Below are positions 14,316 to 57,100 of a DNA stretch of 64,000 nt, one piece after another (the stretch's first letter is position 1; each line of letters opens with the position of its first letter). The notes under the pieces are model-generated. The model saw only the letters and a list, made by a program, of their open reading frames with translations, was not told where the DNA came from and did not search any database. Origin of the DNA: Pyxidicoccus trucidator (GTDB lineage Bacteria; Myxococcota; Myxococcia; Myxococcales; Myxococcaceae); contig NZ_JAAIXZ010000009.1 in assembly GCF_010894435.1 (NCBI RefSeq), positions 229,342-293,341 of the forward strand, read 5' to 3'. The position numbers and the translations under genes are program-made.

Positions 14316-14410
14316 GGGGGGTGTCCTCGTGGGCTGGGGGCCCGTTGTCGCGTTCGTACAGATGGACGGGACGGGCTCCACTTTATTCGAGGGCACCGGG
14401 ACGGCCCTGC

Positions 14411-15121
14411 CTACATGGACTCACCCAGAGAGTCCGGCGGCTTCCGCCGCTCCTTCTCCCAGAAGTACCGGAACTCGGAGCCGAGCATCGCGAGCAGCAG
14501 GGCCGCGGCCAGCGACAGGAGCGCCCAGCCTGGCCAGGGGGATGGGTTGGTGAGCAGGAGCACGGCCACCAGCACCAAGGCGGCGGCGACGTTCCAGCAC
14601 AGCGTGGCCATGTTCCAGAAGTAGAGCAGCAGCTCCGGGTCCTCGCGCTCGCGAGCCGTGGGCGCTGGCCCATAGACGTGCTCGCCCCAACTGTCGCGTG
14701 AAGCCTGCTTCAGTGAGAAGAGGGCCTTCGTCGTGCCCCAGTAGGGATGGCGGAACCACGAGTCGCCCGCGCCATTCCGGCTCCACTGCCAGGCGCCGAG
14801 CCGGAACATGAGGGAGCGCCAGACCCGCGCGACGGCATGGCAGAGCAACCCGGCGATGAAGACCAGGACGACGAGGGTGACGGCGAGCGCAAGCGCGGCG
14901 AGCCAGCCGGGCACGTCCTCCCCCTCCACCAGGGGCGACGCCCCCGCGCCGAGGATGTCCAGCAGGTTCCCCACGACGGCCTTCGACGTGGCGCCGTGGG
15001 ACAGGAACAGGCCCAGGACAAGCACGGCCCCTGGAAGGAAGAAGGCGATATCGAAGACCCGGAAGAAGCCGCCGATGGCCTTCCACCCCGTAGTCACGGG
15101 CTCGGTCGGGGGTGCTGGCAT
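14411..15121 (-). CDS. four-helix membrane protein, candidate RADAR partner
   Basis: AAGGGAGG stands 7 bases before the ATG at 15121; further upstream the frame is open but has no good start. The 236-residue protein has four hydrophobic segments: FDIAFFLPGAVLVLGLFL, LAVTLVVLVFIAGLLCH, NVAAALVLVAVLLL and WALLSLAAALLLAML. Between the two pairs lies a Trp-rich soluble region. I do not recognise the family. It is divergent from rdrA across 230 bases. Known RADAR loci often include a small membrane protein (SLATT or Csx27 types), so a partner role is plausible but based only on position and topology. Confidence 0.7.
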   Translation of the reverse strand: MPAPPTEPVTTGWKAIGGFFRVFDIAFFLPGAVLVLGLFLSHGATSKAVVGNLLDILGAGASPLVEGEDVPGWLAALALAVTLVVLVFIAGLLCHAVARVWRSLMFRLGAWQWSRNGAGDSWFRHPYWGTTKALFSLKQASRDSWGEHVYGPAPTAREREDPELLLYFWNMATLCWNVAAALVLVAVLLLTNPSPWPGWALLSLAAALLLAMLGSEFRYFWEKERRKPPDSLGESM

Positions 15122-15351
15122 GTCCGCGCCTCCCTTGTTCACGCCCGTCGCTGGCACCGGGCCCTGGTCCGAAGGTCGCGTCGCCCACGCGGGCCAGGAA
15201 CTGCTCCCGGGTCCTGCACGGACGGCCGGGCGAGCGCGCGCGGGCCGCCGACGCCGGCCCATCCCTCCGGGCCGATGCCACCCCCCAACGCCCTCCCCCA
15301 CTGTCGCCTGGAGCCCCGCGCCTGGCACCCGCGACATGAGGAGGACACGCC

Positions 15352-18177
15352 ATGGAACCGCAAGCCCCGGAGCGCCTCCCGCACGACAGCGACCCCGAGC
15401 GCCGTCCCCGCCCGGAGGCGATGGCGCTGAGCTGGAAGGAGCTGCTGGCCCCCACCCAGGCGGCCATGGAGGAGCTCATCCACTGGCTGACCGGGGCCCT
15501 CGGCGAGAGCCGGACGCGGAGGACCGGCGCCTCGGACGCGTCTCCCCCCACCGTCCACGAGCAGCTCGCGACGAGCGTGCTCATCGCCGGTGACCGGGGC
15601 TTCGGCAAGACAACGCTCCTGCTGACGCTGGCGGAGGCGCTCCACCAGCCCGCGCGCTTCCTCCTGTCGCAGGCCGCCGCGGACGCGGAGCTGTCCTCCA
15701 GCGGCAGGATTTCCGCCGCGGAGAGCCACCCGCTGTACCGCCCGCTCCATCTGCTCGGTGAGCACCTGGTGATGCTCACGCCACTCGACATGGAGCCCCT
15801 GCCGGCGGAGGCCAACCTGCTGGCCACCCTGCTGGTGCGCGTGCGCGATGCGCTGAACGTGGCGCCCTCCAGCAAGGGGCGTGAGCGGCTCGCCTCCCCC
15901 GTCCTCCTGGAGGAAGGCGCGGACGAGCCCTGGAGTCAGATTGACCAGCTCGTCCGCGAGGCCACCTTCATGTGGGAGGACATCCCGGTGCAGGGGCAGG
16001 ACCCCCGCCAGCGCGCGGAGTACCAGCTCCGGTCGGCGGAGCTCTTCGCCAGCTTCCAGGGGCGCTTCTACAAGGCCATCGACGCGGTGGCCCGGCACCT
16101 GGCCCGGCGCCGCTTCGGCTACGACAGCGACAGCGCCCATGAAGGCGTCATGCTGGTGCTGCCCATCGACAACGTGGACCGCAGCATCCAGCACCTCCAC
16201 CTCATCCTGAAGCTGACGCGCATGGTGGCCAGCCGGAGGCTCTGGTTCCTCCTCGCCGCCGGCCGCCAGGAGTTCCAACTCTTCCTGGAGCGGACCTTCC
16301 AGAAGGAGCTGGCCGACTCCGGACGGCTGCTCCAGAGCGCGAACCGGAACGACCAGACGCTGGCCATCGCTCGCCGGCAGGCCGCCGCGGCCATGCGCCG
16401 CGTGCTCCCGCAGACGCATCGCATCGAGATTCGCTCCCTCACCGCCAGGGAGGTGTGGGATTTCCACGCGCCGGCCTCGCTGCTGGGCGAGCGCCAGGGC
16501 TCGAAGCCGCTCGGCGCGCTGCTCGCGGAGATTCCCCTGCCCGGCCGCGAGAGACCCACCGGGCCCGGGGAGCCGATACCCCCGCGGCGCTCGTTCGCCG
16601 CCCTCTTCGACCTCCGGGAGTGGCTCCATCCCGGGAGCACACTCCAGGTAGCGCCTGCCGAACCCCTCTTCACGGACGCCGCCCGGCTCGCCCTCACCAT
16701 GTCGGCCCGGACGGCCCTGGACCTCTGGCAGGCGGTGCGCAAGGGCTGCTCCCGGAGCCGGCAGCGCGAGCAGGTGCCGACCTCCGGACGGGAGGAGGAC
16801 GGGAACCAGGGCCCGGCGGCCTGCTCACGGCTCACCCTGGGGGGCGACGAGCCAGCCATCACCGTCAGCCACCAGATGCTCCTCATGGCCATCGACGAGA
16901 GCGACCTGCCGAGCTGGGCCAGCGAGCAGCTCCTGCACCGCCTCATCCGCTGTGACGTGAGGAAGCGCACCGTCCTGGACCTGACGGGCATGCCCATCCG
17001 CCGGCTGAAGCGCACCGCGCTGGCCGACGCGCTCGACGTGCCCCCGCTGGAGGGACACGGAGCCAGGGCGCCCGGAGCCAGGGTGCTGCGCAGCGAGCTG
17101 CACCTGCGCCACTTCCAGGACGCCATCCTCCAGCTGCACGACCTGGAGAACCCGGCCCGCTCCGTCCCGCTGCCTTCGAACGTCGCCGGCTGGTTCATGC
17201 TGCTGCACGACCTGCTCATCCGCACCGAGGAGCAGCGCGTCCTCAACCTGCAGGTCATGCCGCTCGACGTGGCCCCGGAGCTGGTGGTGAGCCAGCACGA
17301 GGCCCGGCTCGAGAAGGACTTCCTCTTCGAGCTCAACCTCTGGTGGATTCCCCCCGAGTGGGAGACCTTCATTGACTTCGCCATCTTCACCCACCAGTGG
17401 AAGGAGTGCTTCATCGAGCCGCGTCTGGCCGTGCTCCAGCAGGCCTGGGTCCACGAGCGCGGGGAAGAGACGCGGAACTCCTGCTTGCGGCTCATCCTGG
17501 CGGCCTGGGTCGACAACGTCTGCTCGGTGGCGGGAAGGCAGCGCGGTGGCTGGCAGCTGCCGCTGACCTCCACCTCCTCCGCGACCTCGCTCGAGGAGTA
17601 CACGGGGGCAGTCGAGTCGTATGAGCAGGACGTCGCCCGGCATGTGCTGACGCTCTTCCAGGAGTGCCGCGACGCGCGGCTGCACCATGACCGCGCCCGC
17701 ATCGCCTGGCGCTGGCTGAGGTATTCACTGCCCCTGATGCTCCAGCCGGAGTTCCTCCCGGCCTCCGTCACCCGGCCCCTCTGGGAGCTGCTCTCACCGG
17801 AGCTCGCGTGGGACACCGCGCTCCTTCAGCGGCGGCGCTTCGAGATGGTTCGCGCCGTGCTGCAGCGCTCCGACGCCTACCAGCGCCAGGAAGCGCTGTT
17901 CAATCGCGCCACCGGGCCGGGCGCGCAGCAGGCCCGCGACTTCCTCCTGGACTGCTGCGCGACCTGGTTCCGGTCCGTGGCCTCGCACTTCGATGGCCCC
18001 CCAGGCGCTCCAGGAGGGGCTCCGGAAGAAGCCCCGGCGCGGAAGCGCGCGGCCCCCACGCGGGTGCCCGCCCGGGGCGCGAAGACGGTGCGGCGGAGCG
18101 TCTCGGCGAAGGAGTCCCGGCGGAGTACGGACACTCCCGGCAAGTCTCGCCCGGGCTCCCGGAAGAGGCGGCGCTGA
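15352..18177 (+). CDS. rdrA: RADAR ATPase RdrA-like protein
   Basis: The 941-residue P-loop ATPase starts after AGGAGG at 9 bases spacing. Walker A is GDRGFGKTT at residues 80-88; Walker B is VMLVLPIDNVD near residue 270, followed by FLLAAGRQEFQLFLERTF, which fits a STAND/AAA-type sensor region. The C-terminal half is helical and ends in a basic tail rich in Lys, Arg and Pro. It is followed one base later by an adenosine-deaminase-fold protein of 933 residues. In RADAR, RdrA forms rings that dock on RdrB and are needed for defence against phage. Size, gene order and partner all fit; identification is by architecture, not by search. Confidence 0.78.
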   Translation: MEPQAPERLPHDSDPERRPRPEAMALSWKELLAPTQAAMEELIHWLTGALGESRTRRTGASDASPPTVHEQLATSVLIAGDRGFGKTTLLLTLAEALHQPARFLLSQAAADAELSSSGRISAAESHPLYRPLHLLGEHLVMLTPLDMEPLPAEANLLATLLVRVRDALNVAPSSKGRERLASPVLLEEGADEPWSQIDQLVREATFMWEDIPVQGQDPRQRAEYQLRSAELFASFQGRFYKAIDAVARHLARRRFGYDSDSAHEGVMLVLPIDNVDRSIQHLHLILKLTRMVASRRLWFLLAAGRQEFQLFLERTFQKELADSGRLLQSANRNDQTLAIARRQAAAAMRRVLPQTHRIEIRSLTAREVWDFHAPASLLGERQGSKPLGALLAEIPLPGRERPTGPGEPIPPRRSFAALFDLREWLHPGSTLQVAPAEPLFTDAARLALTMSARTALDLWQAVRKGCSRSRQREQVPTSGREEDGNQGPAACSRLTLGGDEPAITVSHQMLLMAIDESDLPSWASEQLLHRLIRCDVRKRTVLDLTGMPIRRLKRTALADALDVPPLEGHGARAPGARVLRSELHLRHFQDAILQLHDLENPARSVPLPSNVAGWFMLLHDLLIRTEEQRVLNLQVMPLDVAPELVVSQHEARLEKDFLFELNLWWIPPEWETFIDFAIFTHQWKECFIEPRLAVLQQAWVHERGEETRNSCLRLILAAWVDNVCSVAGRQRGGWQLPLTSTSSATSLEEYTGAVESYEQDVARHVLTLFQECRDARLHHDRARIAWRWLRYSLPLMLQPEFLPASVTRPLWELLSPELAWDTALLQRRRFEMVRAVLQRSDAYQRQEALFNRATGPGAQQARDFLLDCCATWFRSVASHFDGPPGAPGGAPEEAPARKRAAPTRVPARGAKTVRRSVSAKESRRSTDTPGKSRPGSRKRRR

Positions 18178-18178
18178 C

Positions 18179-20980
18179 GTGAGCGAGCCGCAGTCACCTC
18201 CAGGCATGCCGCTGGCCCCCCGGCGCACGCCGGAGGCCTACGTCCGCGCGGAGGTCGCCAGCTTCCCCCTGGCCAGCCGCGAAGCGTTCCGCTCCGCCAT
18301 GGTGCAGCTCAACCCCCTGCTCGACGGAGCCACGGGCGGCAAGACGCGGGCGCTCTGGGCGCACTGCGAGGAGCAACTCTCCCAGCACGCGGGAGGCTGG
18401 TCCCTGGACCGGCTCATCATCGCCCGCGACTTCTTCTGGTTCGGGTTCCTCCCGGGAGCCCAGCACGCCGTGGAGCCGCGGCCCGTCTCCATGGCGCGCT
18501 ACCTGCGCACCCTCTCCCGCATCTACCTGGAGGCCGCCCCGGGACGCACCCGGCTGAAGCAGGGCTTCGAGACCAACTCCTTCGACGCGTCCACCCACTA
18601 CCGCTGGCTCACCTTCGCGCTCCCCGAGGACCTGCTGCTGGCGGCCACCGACGCCGAGCCGCCTCCCACCGGCGTGGGCGCGGAGCCCCCCATGCTGCTG
18701 CGACACCTCGCGGACCGGGGGGTGGTGGAGATCCACCACCACATCGGCGCGGGCATGGACTTCCCCCTGCTGTGGGCCGCGCTCCAGGCGAGGCTCGCGG
18801 ACCCGGCCCTCGCTCCGAGCGATCTGGACAGCCCCGCCCTGCCCTTCGACTCCGGCGAGCTGCTGCTGACCTGGCTGCTGGTCGCCGCCGTGAGCCGCTG
18901 CGTGCTGGCCGAGTTCCTCGTCCAGACGGGCGGCACCGGCCCCACCCTGCGCGGCTTCCTGAGCGCCCTGTCCACCGGCACGGACTGGACGTTCGGCCGG
19001 CGCCGCCTGCTCCTCCAGGCGCTCGACGCCCTCGCGGACGGACAGCGTGAGGAGCTGCCGGATGTCTACCGCCTGCGCGAGCTCTACCGGGACCTCCACC
19101 CGCTGCGGGACGGCCCCTCGACGAATCCCCCGCCGACGCTCGACGCGCTGTGGCGGCGCTGCGACCCCATCGCCGTCCGGCTGGGACTGCACATCCCCAA
19201 TGGAGGAGAGCGCTGGCTGGTGCGCCACGCAATGACATACCTGGAGCAGCGCGAGCGGGAGCCGGGGGACGGGGACGCACTCTTCGCCCGCCTCTTCTGG
19301 CAGCTCCAGCGGGCGCGGTGCATCTACTACCGCTCCGTGGTGCAGCGGCCGATGACGGCCGGGCTCCAGTGGTTCGTCCGTTTCTATGACCGCCTGGGCT
19401 GGGCCCGCGTGCCGCTGCGCGCGGCACGCGCGGAGGTGTCCTTCGCGGTGGCGGGCAAGGGTCAGCCGCTCTCCGGCCTGGAGGTGCGCATCGCCCCTTC
19501 CGAGAGCCCCTTCGCGCTGGCCGAGGACCTCCGGGGCCTCACCCGCTCGTGGGCGTACGTGCTGGAGAAGACGCGCAGCCCGCGGCACGGCCGCCGCGAG
19601 CCGGAGTTCGGCGTCATCGTCCACCTGCTCAAGGAGAGGGACCTCCAGCGGCGCTGGGCGGCGGGCATTCCTCCCGGGGGCGAGCGGCAGACGCATGCCG
19701 AGCCCCACCCTCGCGGCGACCAGATCCGGCTGGGCGGCCGCTTCGCGGAGTTCTTCTCGCACCAGACGCGGCGGGCCCGCGCGCTGGTGGACCTGCTGCG
19801 CGCGGTGCCGCAGGCGCTCTGGCTGGTGCGGGGGCTGGACGTGGCGTCGGACGAGCTGGGCGTGCCCACCTGGGTGATGGTGCCCCTCTACCGGTATATC
19901 GAGCGCGAGGCGGCCCTGGCCGCCGTCGCTCCCGCCAGCCTCAACGCCCCGCCGCTGCGGCTGACGGCGCACGTGGGCGAGGACTTCCGCCACCTCATGG
20001 AGGGCATGCGGCGCGTCTACGAGTGCATCCAGTACCTGCTGGGCGGCGCGGGCGGCCGGCTGGGACATGCCACCGCGCTGGGTATCAACCCCCGCCGCTG
20101 GGCGGAGTCGACGGGCTCGGTGATGATGATGGCCGAGGAGCGGCTGTGGGACCTGGTCTTCGAGTGGCGGCTGTACAGCCGCTACCGCGTCGACCCCCAG
20201 CTCCAGGTGGAAGCCCCGTCGGGGCGGCCCGAGCAGGTGGAGAACCTCATCCGCCAGCTCTCCGGCAGCATCTTCCACCGCTGCCAGGAGCCCCAGGTGC
20301 TGGCCGAGGCGCACCACGTGCTGCACCAGCTCCTGTGCCGCCCCATCTCCCGCGTGGCGGCCGGGGGCAGCCTGGATGCGTTCGTCCGCGCACTGAAGAA
20401 CCTGGACCCGGAGCAGGTGCGCAACTACCGCCAGGTGCGCCAGCTGCTCCAGGACTACCGCGAGGATGAGACGGTCTTCCTGCGCGGGCGGGACCTGGTG
20501 GACATCACCCTCGACGCCTCCGAGGTGTCCGCGCTGCTGGCCGTGCAGAACGCGCTGCGCCGCGAGGTGGGGCTGCGGGGGCTCGTCGTCGAGGTCAACC
20601 CGTCCAGCAACCTGCTCATCGGCGACATGATGGACCTGCGCAGCCACCCCATCCTCCGCCTCTTCCCCCCGGAGCGCGAGGAGGGTGCGCCCCCGCCCGT
20701 GCCCATCGCCGTGGGCTCGGACGACCCCATCACCTTCAGCACCTGGCTGCTCCGCGAGTACGCGCTGCTCCACGAGGCCGGGCTCATGGCCGGCTACTCC
20801 GAGCGCGTCGTCCACGACTGGCTGGAGACCATCCAGAAGATTGGCATGGACGCCCGCTTCACCGTGCCCTGGCACCCCTCCGCCCGCCGCCAGGCGGAGC
20901 GGCTCCTGGACGCGCTGGAGGACTACCTCCAGCTCCCGCAGAGCAGCCGGACCCGGTTCCCGGCGCCCGGAAGTGAGTAA
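18179..20980 (+). CDS. rdrB: RADAR adenosine deaminase RdrB-like protein
   Basis: The GTG at 18179 begins one base after the rdrA stop, with GGAAGAGG upstream. The 933-residue protein carries the adenosine-deaminase metal and catalytic motifs spread over a long chain: EIHHHIGAGMD near residue 185 (zinc histidines), LTAHVGED near 598 (His and catalytic Glu), GRLGHATALG, VEVNPSSN and VGSDDP near 847. Classic deaminases are about 350 residues, so the large insertions and length match RdrB, which forms a dodecameric shell and deaminates adenosine or ATP/RNA during infection. All key residues appear intact. Confidence 0.82.
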   Translation: MSEPQSPPGMPLAPRRTPEAYVRAEVASFPLASREAFRSAMVQLNPLLDGATGGKTRALWAHCEEQLSQHAGGWSLDRLIIARDFFWFGFLPGAQHAVEPRPVSMARYLRTLSRIYLEAAPGRTRLKQGFETNSFDASTHYRWLTFALPEDLLLAATDAEPPPTGVGAEPPMLLRHLADRGVVEIHHHIGAGMDFPLLWAALQARLADPALAPSDLDSPALPFDSGELLLTWLLVAAVSRCVLAEFLVQTGGTGPTLRGFLSALSTGTDWTFGRRRLLLQALDALADGQREELPDVYRLRELYRDLHPLRDGPSTNPPPTLDALWRRCDPIAVRLGLHIPNGGERWLVRHAMTYLEQREREPGDGDALFARLFWQLQRARCIYYRSVVQRPMTAGLQWFVRFYDRLGWARVPLRAARAEVSFAVAGKGQPLSGLEVRIAPSESPFALAEDLRGLTRSWAYVLEKTRSPRHGRREPEFGVIVHLLKERDLQRRWAAGIPPGGERQTHAEPHPRGDQIRLGGRFAEFFSHQTRRARALVDLLRAVPQALWLVRGLDVASDELGVPTWVMVPLYRYIEREAALAAVAPASLNAPPLRLTAHVGEDFRHLMEGMRRVYECIQYLLGGAGGRLGHATALGINPRRWAESTGSVMMMAEERLWDLVFEWRLYSRYRVDPQLQVEAPSGRPEQVENLIRQLSGSIFHRCQEPQVLAEAHHVLHQLLCRPISRVAAGGSLDAFVRALKNLDPEQVRNYRQVRQLLQDYREDETVFLRGRDLVDITLDASEVSALLAVQNALRREVGLRGLVVEVNPSSNLLIGDMMDLRSHPILRLFPPEREEGAPPPVPIAVGSDDPITFSTWLLREYALLHEAGLMAGYSERVVHDWLETIQKIGMDARFTVPWHPSARRQAERLLDALEDYLQLPQSSRTRFPAPGSE

Positions 20981-21033
20981 CCGAGGTCGGCGCGGAGTGG
21001 CCCCAGGGCGCGGCGGAGCCCGCTGAAGAAGAA

Positions 21034-21062: not shown

Positions 21063-21089
21063 ATCCACTTCAGGCCGGTGTGGCCAGGA

Positions 21090-55410: not shown

Positions 55411-56244
55411 TCAGGCCGCGCTCGCCCCGCAGCGCTTGAGGATGGCGCGGGCACGGGCCAGCTCCTCCACCAGCCGCGAGAACGGCGGGAAGCCGCTGTC
55501 CATCTCGAAGTTCACTCCACGCACCGGGCAGCGCGGCGCCACGTACTCCAGCAGCCGCCACACCTCGTCCGGAGAGACGGACGAGTGGCTGTCCACGTAC
55601 ACGCCCTCCATCGTCACCCCACCCGCCAGGTGGATCTGCACCACCCTGTCCAGCGGGAGCCGGTCCACGAAGTGGTACGGGTCGAACTTGTGGTTCACCG
55701 CGTTGGCGTAGACGTTGTGCAAATCCAGCAGCAGCCCGCAGTCCGACTCCTTCACCACGCGGGTGAGGAAGTCGGCCTCGTCCAGCGTGCTGAGCGGCGT
55801 GTCGAACAGCCAGGCGATGTTCTCGATGACGAAGGGCATGCCCAGGTCCGCCTGCACGCGGCGGATGTTGCGCACGCACGTCTCCAGCGCCTCCTCCGTG
55901 AAGGGCACCGGCGTGAGCGAGCGCACCGGCAGCTCGCCCGCGCGGGTGAAGCACAAGTGGTCCGAGTGCCACGCCGCCCGGGTGAGGCCCAGGAAGCGCT
56001 TCAGGTCCTCGCGGTAGCCCGGCCCGTCCACGCCGTCCGAGCCCACCGACAGCTCCAGGCCGTGGCCGGCCAGCGGGAAGCGCTTCGCCAGCACCTCCAG
56101 CCGCCGCACCGCGTCCTCCGTCAGCGGGAGGAAGTGCTCGGGCATCACCTCCAGCCAGTCCACACCCGGGTTGCCCCGGGCGAGGTTGGGCTGGAAGTCC
56201 CAGCGATAGCTGAGCCCCACTCCGAGGAACGGAATCGCCGCCAC
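55411..56244 (-). CDS. DUF692-family multinuclear non-haem iron oxidase (MNIO), MbnB/TglH-like
   Basis: The 277-residue protein has the complete DUF692 signature: LEVMPEHF (E32, E36), AGHGLELSVG (H61), WHSDHLCF (H93, H96), VIENIAW (E141, N142), LLLDLHNVYAN (D174, N177), VQIHLAGG (H205), VYVDSHSSV (D218, H220) and VNFEMDSGFP (E247). These fit the two- or three-iron active site of MbnB, TglH and related enzymes, which oxidatively rearrange cysteine residues of ribosomal peptides. The natural substrates here are the seven KCSCGG peptides encoded upstream in the same operon. Confidence 0.88.
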   Translation of the reverse strand: MAAIPFLGVGLSYRWDFQPNLARGNPGVDWLEVMPEHFLPLTEDAVRRLEVLAKRFPLAGHGLELSVGSDGVDGPGYREDLKRFLGLTRAAWHSDHLCFTRAGELPVRSLTPVPFTEEALETCVRNIRRVQADLGMPFVIENIAWLFDTPLSTLDEADFLTRVVKESDCGLLLDLHNVYANAVNHKFDPYHFVDRLPLDRVVQIHLAGGVTMEGVYVDSHSSVSPDEVWRLLEYVAPRCPVRGVNFEMDSGFPPFSRLVEELARARAILKRCGASAA

Positions 56245-56254
56245 GGCCAGCCTC

Positions 56255-57100
56255 CTACTTCTTCCTGCGCGCCATCACCTGGAAGTGCTGCCCCTGCAGC
56301 GCGAAGCCCTCATGCGCGAACTTCTCCTGCATCGCGATGATTTCGTCGCGCGCCGCCCACACGTCGAAGTCCGGGCCGCGCTCGGCCTGCATCGCCTCGA
56401 GCATCTCGAAGTACATGACGGGCTTGCCGAAGATCTCCTCCACGTCGGCGCCGGCGGCCTTCACGCCGTCGTGCAGCTCCTTCAGCGTAAAGAGGTGCAC
56501 CGGCAGCCCGTACGGGCACTTGCCGCGCCCGGTCATCAGCATCTTCAGGGCCTCGGCCTTCTTGCCGTGCTTCAGCTCGAACATGAAGTGCTCGTTCAGG
56601 TTGTCCACGCCCATGATGACCGGCCCGCCCGGCTTCACCACGCGCACCAGCTCGCTCATGGCCTTGGGGTACTGGTCCAGGCAGTAGGACACCGGGTCGC
56701 CCTCGCTGAACACCAGGTCGAACGAGGCGTCCTCGAAGCGCAGGTCCGCCACCGTGCCCTCGACGAAGGTGGCCCGCTCCAGCAGCCCCTTCGAGGAGAG
56801 GTGCGCCTTCGCCGAGTCCAGCATGCCCGCGGAGATGTCCAGCACGGTGACGTGGTGGCCGGCCTCCGCGAAGCGCGCGCTGAACTTGCCGCCACCGCCG
56901 CCAGCGTCCAGCACGCGCCAGGACGTGCCGGCCGGAGGCAGCACCTTCTGGACGGCCGCCCAGGTGAGGTGGTCGTAGACCACCCAGAACAGCTTGTGCG
57001 CCGCCTTGGTGTAGTTGCTGTTGTTGTACGTCGACGACACCTGGTCGTAGCGGCTGGAGATGTCCTGCGGCTGGGGAGGCGTGGGGGTGGTGGCGCTCAT
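56255..57100 (-). CDS. SAM-dependent methyltransferase
   Basis: The 281-residue class I methyltransferase has motif I VLDAGGGGGKFS, motif II HVTVLDISAGML, and SFDLVFSEGDPVSYC. The N-terminus (SSRYDQVSSTYNNSNYTKAA) is polar and lacks a signal. It lies 10 bases before the MNIO gene and 21 bases after the DUF5916 gene, so it is part of the operon and probably methylates the peptide product or an intermediate. Confidence 0.82.
   Translation of the reverse strand: MSATTPTPPQPQDISSRYDQVSSTYNNSNYTKAAHKLFWVVYDHLTWAAVQKVLPPAGTSWRVLDAGGGGGKFSARFAEAGHHVTVLDISAGMLDSAKAHLSSKGLLERATFVEGTVADLRFEDASFDLVFSEGDPVSYCLDQYPKAMSELVRVVKPGGPVIMGVDNLNEHFMFELKHGKKAEALKMLMTGRGKCPYGLPVHLFTLKELHDGVKAAGADVEEIFGKPVMYFEMLEAMQAERGPDFDVWAARDEIIAMQEKFAHEGFALQGQHFQVMARRKK

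Follow-up and report, generated by a model that had tools for sequence, protein, structure and literature searches.

We analysed a stretch of 64,000 nucleotides (the window) from contig C9 of the 12.67-Mb Pyxidicoccus trucidator genome (G000), in which three genes, a membrane gene, rdrA and rdrB, form a unit of 6.6 kb (14390..21027) that was delimited by DNA comparison with sister species. On the forward strand, an rdrA-like gene for an AAA+ ATPase of 941 aa (15352..18177), recognised from profile, fold and motif evidence and preceded by an SD-like GGAGG, is followed by an rdrB-like gene for an adenosine deaminase of 933 aa (18179..20980), recognised from RdrB profiles and a match to solved RdrB. 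The third gene lies on the reverse strand (14411..15121), divergent from rdrA, and codes for a protein of 236 aa in which four membrane segments are predicted, a candidate accessory of RADAR, a known anti-phage system of two proteins; the 230 bp between the two (15122..15351) presumably hold the promoters, for which a sigma-70 consensus scan found no match. The rdrA stop codon ends at 18177 and, one base later, rdrB opens with a GTG that has GAGG upstream and at which the RdrB alignments of relatives begin, while the extension from a longer in-frame ATG start (17993) is not coding-like in its codon-position GC (0.79/0.81/0.73). Both genes are strongly coding by this measure (0.72/0.49/0.93 for rdrA, 0.75/0.49/0.95 for rdrB), and the open reading frames, motifs and codon-position GC together confirm the P-loop ATPase and the long second protein that an initial annotation had described one base apart. 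For the membrane gene, the start at 15121 is preferred over an ATG at 15337 because of the SD sequence AAGGGAGG before it, the coding composition, which disfavours the upstream ATG, and the alignment to its homologue.

The identity of the second protein is the clearest part of the system. It matches the PADLOC RdrB model (E 5.6e-34) and the NCBIfam RdrB model NF041744 (E 2.7e-42, 145.3 bits), the solved E. coli RdrB (8fnv/8fnw, E 1e-27) stands out among solved structures, and hhalign aligns it with four plasmid-borne RdrBs over 723 columns (probability 100, E 1.9e-55). The ordinary adenosine deaminase Pfam family gives a far weaker match than the RdrB models (7.7e-4), and these comparisons argue for homology with RdrB rather than with ordinary adenosine deaminases. 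The zinc-coordinating or catalytic residues of E. coli RdrB are H152, H154, H498, H530 and E501 (PMC9994260); their equivalents are the histidine tetrad H186, H188, H598 and H630 and the catalytic E601, invariant across a ten-sequence RdrB alignment, so that the deaminase motifs reported initially are indeed intact in this long chain. D848-D849 lie within GSDDP (the SDDP motif), and alignment of the sequence and its profile to solved RdrB suggests a deaminase (TIM) barrel.

Known RADARs have rdrA ahead of rdrB (PMC9994260), the order found here and again in relatives, in agreement with the layout first proposed. The RdrB-like genes that were examined with enough flanking sequence are directly preceded by a gene for an RdrA-like or P-loop ATPase and, since both proteins are kept adjacent in relatives from several phyla, the pair is not a chance association. 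In the ATPase, the Walker A motif GDRGFGKTT occupies residues 80-88, with K86 and T87, and aligns to G81, K82 and T83 of E. coli RdrA. The Walker B motif is LPIDNVDRS, in which D273 is kept and N274 stands in place of the second Asp (D221-D222 in E. coli). Every member of the window's clade whose RdrA was read has LP[IV]DN[VI]DRS at this site, and D-D is found in the E. coli-like, Rhizobium and Cetobacterium RdrAs and in those of five further loci (L052-L056). At the position of the E. coli sensor-1 residue D253, the RdrA alignment has Gly in its Myxococcota members and Asp in L009 and L010. Our most speculative reading of the D-N Walker B, from sequence, is that in this clade ATP binding may count for more than rapid hydrolysis. 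The altered ATPase motifs, like the third gene and the boundaries of the unit, go beyond the initial annotation.

The unit extends from 21 bp past the stop codon of the membrane gene to 47 bp after rdrB, and the genes flanking it, a permease upstream and a BNR-repeat gene downstream, lie close together in several genomes of the same genus. In two sister-species genomes (G113, G128) DNA homology runs to window position 14389 and resumes at 21028, with 79 bp between, and in another (G123) it runs to 14389 and resumes at 21082, with about 255 bp between. Two others (G116, G138) have signalling genes at the site instead of the unit, and these are not known defence genes. In two sister-species loci this same site holds a histidine kinase and response regulator (L070) or a KaiC-like ATPase and response regulator (L071) instead of RADAR. 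The unit was either gained here or lost in the sister species, gain being the simpler reading; no target-site duplication was evident by eye at its edges. The idea of a defence island was rejected on these signalling genes and on a scan of ten other window genes, which gave only generic kinase matches in PADLOC and turned up no further clear defence gene.

The 236-aa membrane protein has no significant Pfam, PADLOC or NCBIfam family match, and it could be merely a neighbour of a plain two-gene RADAR. Its divergent transcription, and the lack of such a gene near the close sister systems L004 and L048, would fit this reading. We nevertheless consider it unlikely, given that the membrane gene lies inside the unit, whose edge falls just beyond it, and that its sole other homologue in 195 Myxococcota genomes (L003/G100) directly adjoins the rdrA of a sister system, lying upstream and pointing the same way as its neighbour rather than opposite as in the window. 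Other clade members also carry other membrane genes beside rdrAB. A SLATT_2 protein is encoded downstream of rdrB in L008, and unrelated membrane proteins occur in L002 and L009. A membrane family of about 390 aa is common to Corallococcus and UBA5297 in differing orientations, with a truncated homologue at a contig end in Anaeromyxobacter (L005); in Corallococcus (G075-G090), all six fully read loci (L041-L046) have this protein, whose membrane segments are C-terminal, convergent with and directly past rdrB. No convincing membrane gene was seen beside rdrAB in L004, L047, L048 or L010, so the accessory is optional. As an accessory, the 236-aa protein might regulate or tether RADAR or add an effector to it, in parallel to Csx27 and SLATT, and this is among the most speculative of our suggestions. 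In Myxococcus sp. RHSTA-1-4 (L002:3813-5036), a 251-aa membrane protein with four segments and a 152-aa protein similar to Nuc_deoxyri_tr2 (E 1e-6) are encoded upstream of rdrA and are possibly a further accessory pair; the 251-aa protein was considered as a homologue of the 236-aa protein and rejected, no homology being detected.

The nearest named relatives of the RdrB come from Myxococcus sp. RHSTA-1-4, a Myxococcaceae MAG and Archangium lansinium, and nine close relatives with 46-66% identity comprise Myxococcota together with one Fibrobacter, one Burkholderiales and one Methylococcales MAG. They form a deep clade that is frequent in Myxococcota, has members in MAGs of Fibrobacterota and Pseudomonadota, and in a tree of 42 RdrB sequences stands well apart from the plasmid-borne RADARs, which are themselves mutually distant. 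RdrB-like matches, of which two are weak or fragmentary, were found in 32 of the 195 Myxococcota genomes searched, and no relative was found when viral contigs were searched with the RdrB alignment. In more diverged Myxococcota clades the RdrA ranges from 792 to 1224 aa. Several further observations concern this wider family: twelve Myxococcota loci (L049-L060) hold further and more diverged RADAR-like pairs, in which the profile of the window clade gives the RdrBs about 400-490 bits and the RdrAs are often above 1100 aa; three genomes (G062, G127, G102) have three or four RdrB-like matches each; and in the Fibrobacter MAG (L008:3898-6814) rdrA is split over two adjacent ORFs, through either a true interruption or an assembly error.

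This distribution bears on whether a pair descended from RADAR could by now have exchanged phage defence for a host function, be it in nucleotide metabolism, in development or in predation. Known RADAR is described as rare, being found in <1% of genomes (PMC9994260), whereas 15 of 16 Corallococcus genomes have an RdrB-like gene of the window's family, a near-core retention that would be unusual for so rare a defence system; the fixation of the D-N Walker B throughout the clade points the same way. Against this, the clade is patchy within the window's own genus, where only the source genome and G127 give clade-level RdrB scores, the unit is absent from sister species, and the close relatives are spread across taxa that are unrelated. 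We therefore hold a host function to be improbable. Taken together, the counts in Myxococcota and Corallococcus suggest that the RADAR family may be wider than the curated cut-off indicates.

The NCBIfam equivalog cut-offs are 600 bits for RdrA and 800 bits for RdrB, and the window pair, like its clade, lies far below both. The profile search proposed in the initial annotation was clearly positive for RdrB, with both models, and only marginal for the ATPase, which NF041743, the NCBIfam RdrA model, matches at 27.5 bits (E 1.1e-6). A Pantoea plasmid pair (L061) whose match to solved EcRADAR spans almost the whole of both proteins likewise fails the cut-offs, with 114.6 bits for RdrB and 127.8 bits for RdrA, and the NCBIfam cut-off therefore does not define the RADAR family. 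Judged by this plasmid pair, the window RdrB is inside the range of the family, while the window RdrA is more diverged. The standard annotation cut-off for RADAR would overlook the window pair.

Sequence comparison does link the ATPase to known RdrA: hhalign relates the two with a probability of 95.5% (E 1.6e-8), pairing PLDMEPLPAEANLLATLL of the ATPase, aligned to the crown-site region of RdrA, with the E. coli-type LPTIDPTKLPRHEPILVTVT, and another group of myxobacterial RdrAs (alignment A6) can be aligned with both. Searching PDB sequences with the RdrA profile yielded no RdrA match at E<=10, and we therefore turned to fold comparison, using a structure model built from an eight-sequence alignment with a low mean pLDDT of 56.7. 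In spite of this low confidence, all 20 Foldseek matches at E<=0.001 were RdrA chains, belonging to RADAR entries of the E. coli type and of S. suis, with the next match at E 0.29, and VIA-align gave Z scores of 14.8-18.2 for RdrA, 12.0 for BrxC and 9.7 for ORC. The match covers the AAA+ region and about the first 630 residues, the best VIA alignments stopping by residue ~630; the C-terminal part, where RdrA has the helical domain of its second layer, is helical in the model, at low pLDDT. The AAA+ domain thus has a predicted RdrA fold, in a model of pLDDT 56.7. That only RdrB is RADAR-like, and the ATPase an unrelated ORC/BrxC-type NTPase replacing RdrA, would accord with the very weak RdrA sequence scores, the outcome of the PDB profile search and the fact that BrxC and ORC folds also align, but is very improbable in view of the exclusively RdrA Foldseek matches, the higher RdrA Z scores and the alignments to known RdrA and the A6 group.

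The weak sequence similarity of the RdrA, the low-confidence model and the altered Walker B and sensor-1 positions were counted against a RADAR reading, as were the wide retention of RdrB-like genes in Corallococcus and the lack of a further clear defence gene among the ten window genes scanned. Even so, with the RdrB matches to profiles and structure and significant fold matches of the ATPase to RdrA only, the initial proposal of a RADAR-type system holds, and we are confident that the locus encodes a divergent form of RADAR, with a membrane protein as its accessory. The evidence supports a RADAR core from a clade that has diverged and scores under the curated cut-offs; its ATPase site is altered, and its membrane partner belongs to no known family. 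Among the papers searched, none on RADAR in myxobacteria was found.

Compared with the RADARs of E. coli, C. rodentium and S. suis (8fnt, 8fnu, 8fnv, 8fnw, 8hr7), the window has the same tandem of two large genes, intact deaminase residues and a P-loop ATPase, whose RdrA-like fold is predicted only. It differs in that its RdrB is only about 20% identical and on a separate deep branch of the tree, and its RdrA is almost unrecognisable by sequence, with D-N rather than D-D at Walker B and Gly rather than Asp at sensor 1. The known complex is an RdrA heptamer docked on an RdrB dodecamer. RADARs associated with SLATT or Csx27 consist of the core with an adjacent small membrane protein (Gao et al. 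2020, via PMC7699616). The window has such a neighbour too, but one that is divergently transcribed and without a SLATT match; in comparison with Csx27, its lack of a Pfam, PADLOC or NCBIfam match has to be read with the caveat that those libraries may not include Csx27. Cad1, a CARF-fused adenosine deaminase of type III CRISPR that makes ITP (PMC11645235), is an effector of the same enzymatic type as the window RdrB, in which ITP production can be proposed by analogy. In contrast to Cad1, no CARF domain was found here, and the window RdrB matches RdrB models and has an RdrA-like ATPase as its partner.

On the model of the E. coli complex of known structure (PMC9994260), RdrA would assemble into a ring-shaped ATPase, respond to phage infection and dock on a shell of RdrB. 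RdrB would then deaminate adenine mononucleotides, converting ATP and dATP to ITP and dITP, which would poison the nucleotide pool and abort phage replication; RNA editing, the original proposal for RADAR, would be an alternative output. Assembly, substrate, trigger and defence are thus all taken over from solved RADAR, and abortive phage defence through nucleotide deamination is the likely role on this analogy. More tentatively, and as an idea that we think possible though doubtful, RdrA could be a slow or non-hydrolysing ATP switch, with interchangeable multi-pass proteins coupling activation or killing to the membrane, in what would be a membrane-linked RADAR subtype of three components instead of a soluble machine of two proteins. 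Because the ATPase site of RdrA is altered in this natural clade and its membrane partners are new, it gives direct access to what ATP hydrolysis and membrane accessories contribute to RADAR. Elsewhere in the window, on the reverse strand (55411-57100), an enzyme of the MbnB/TglH/ChrH family of RiPP modification is encoded beside a methyltransferase.
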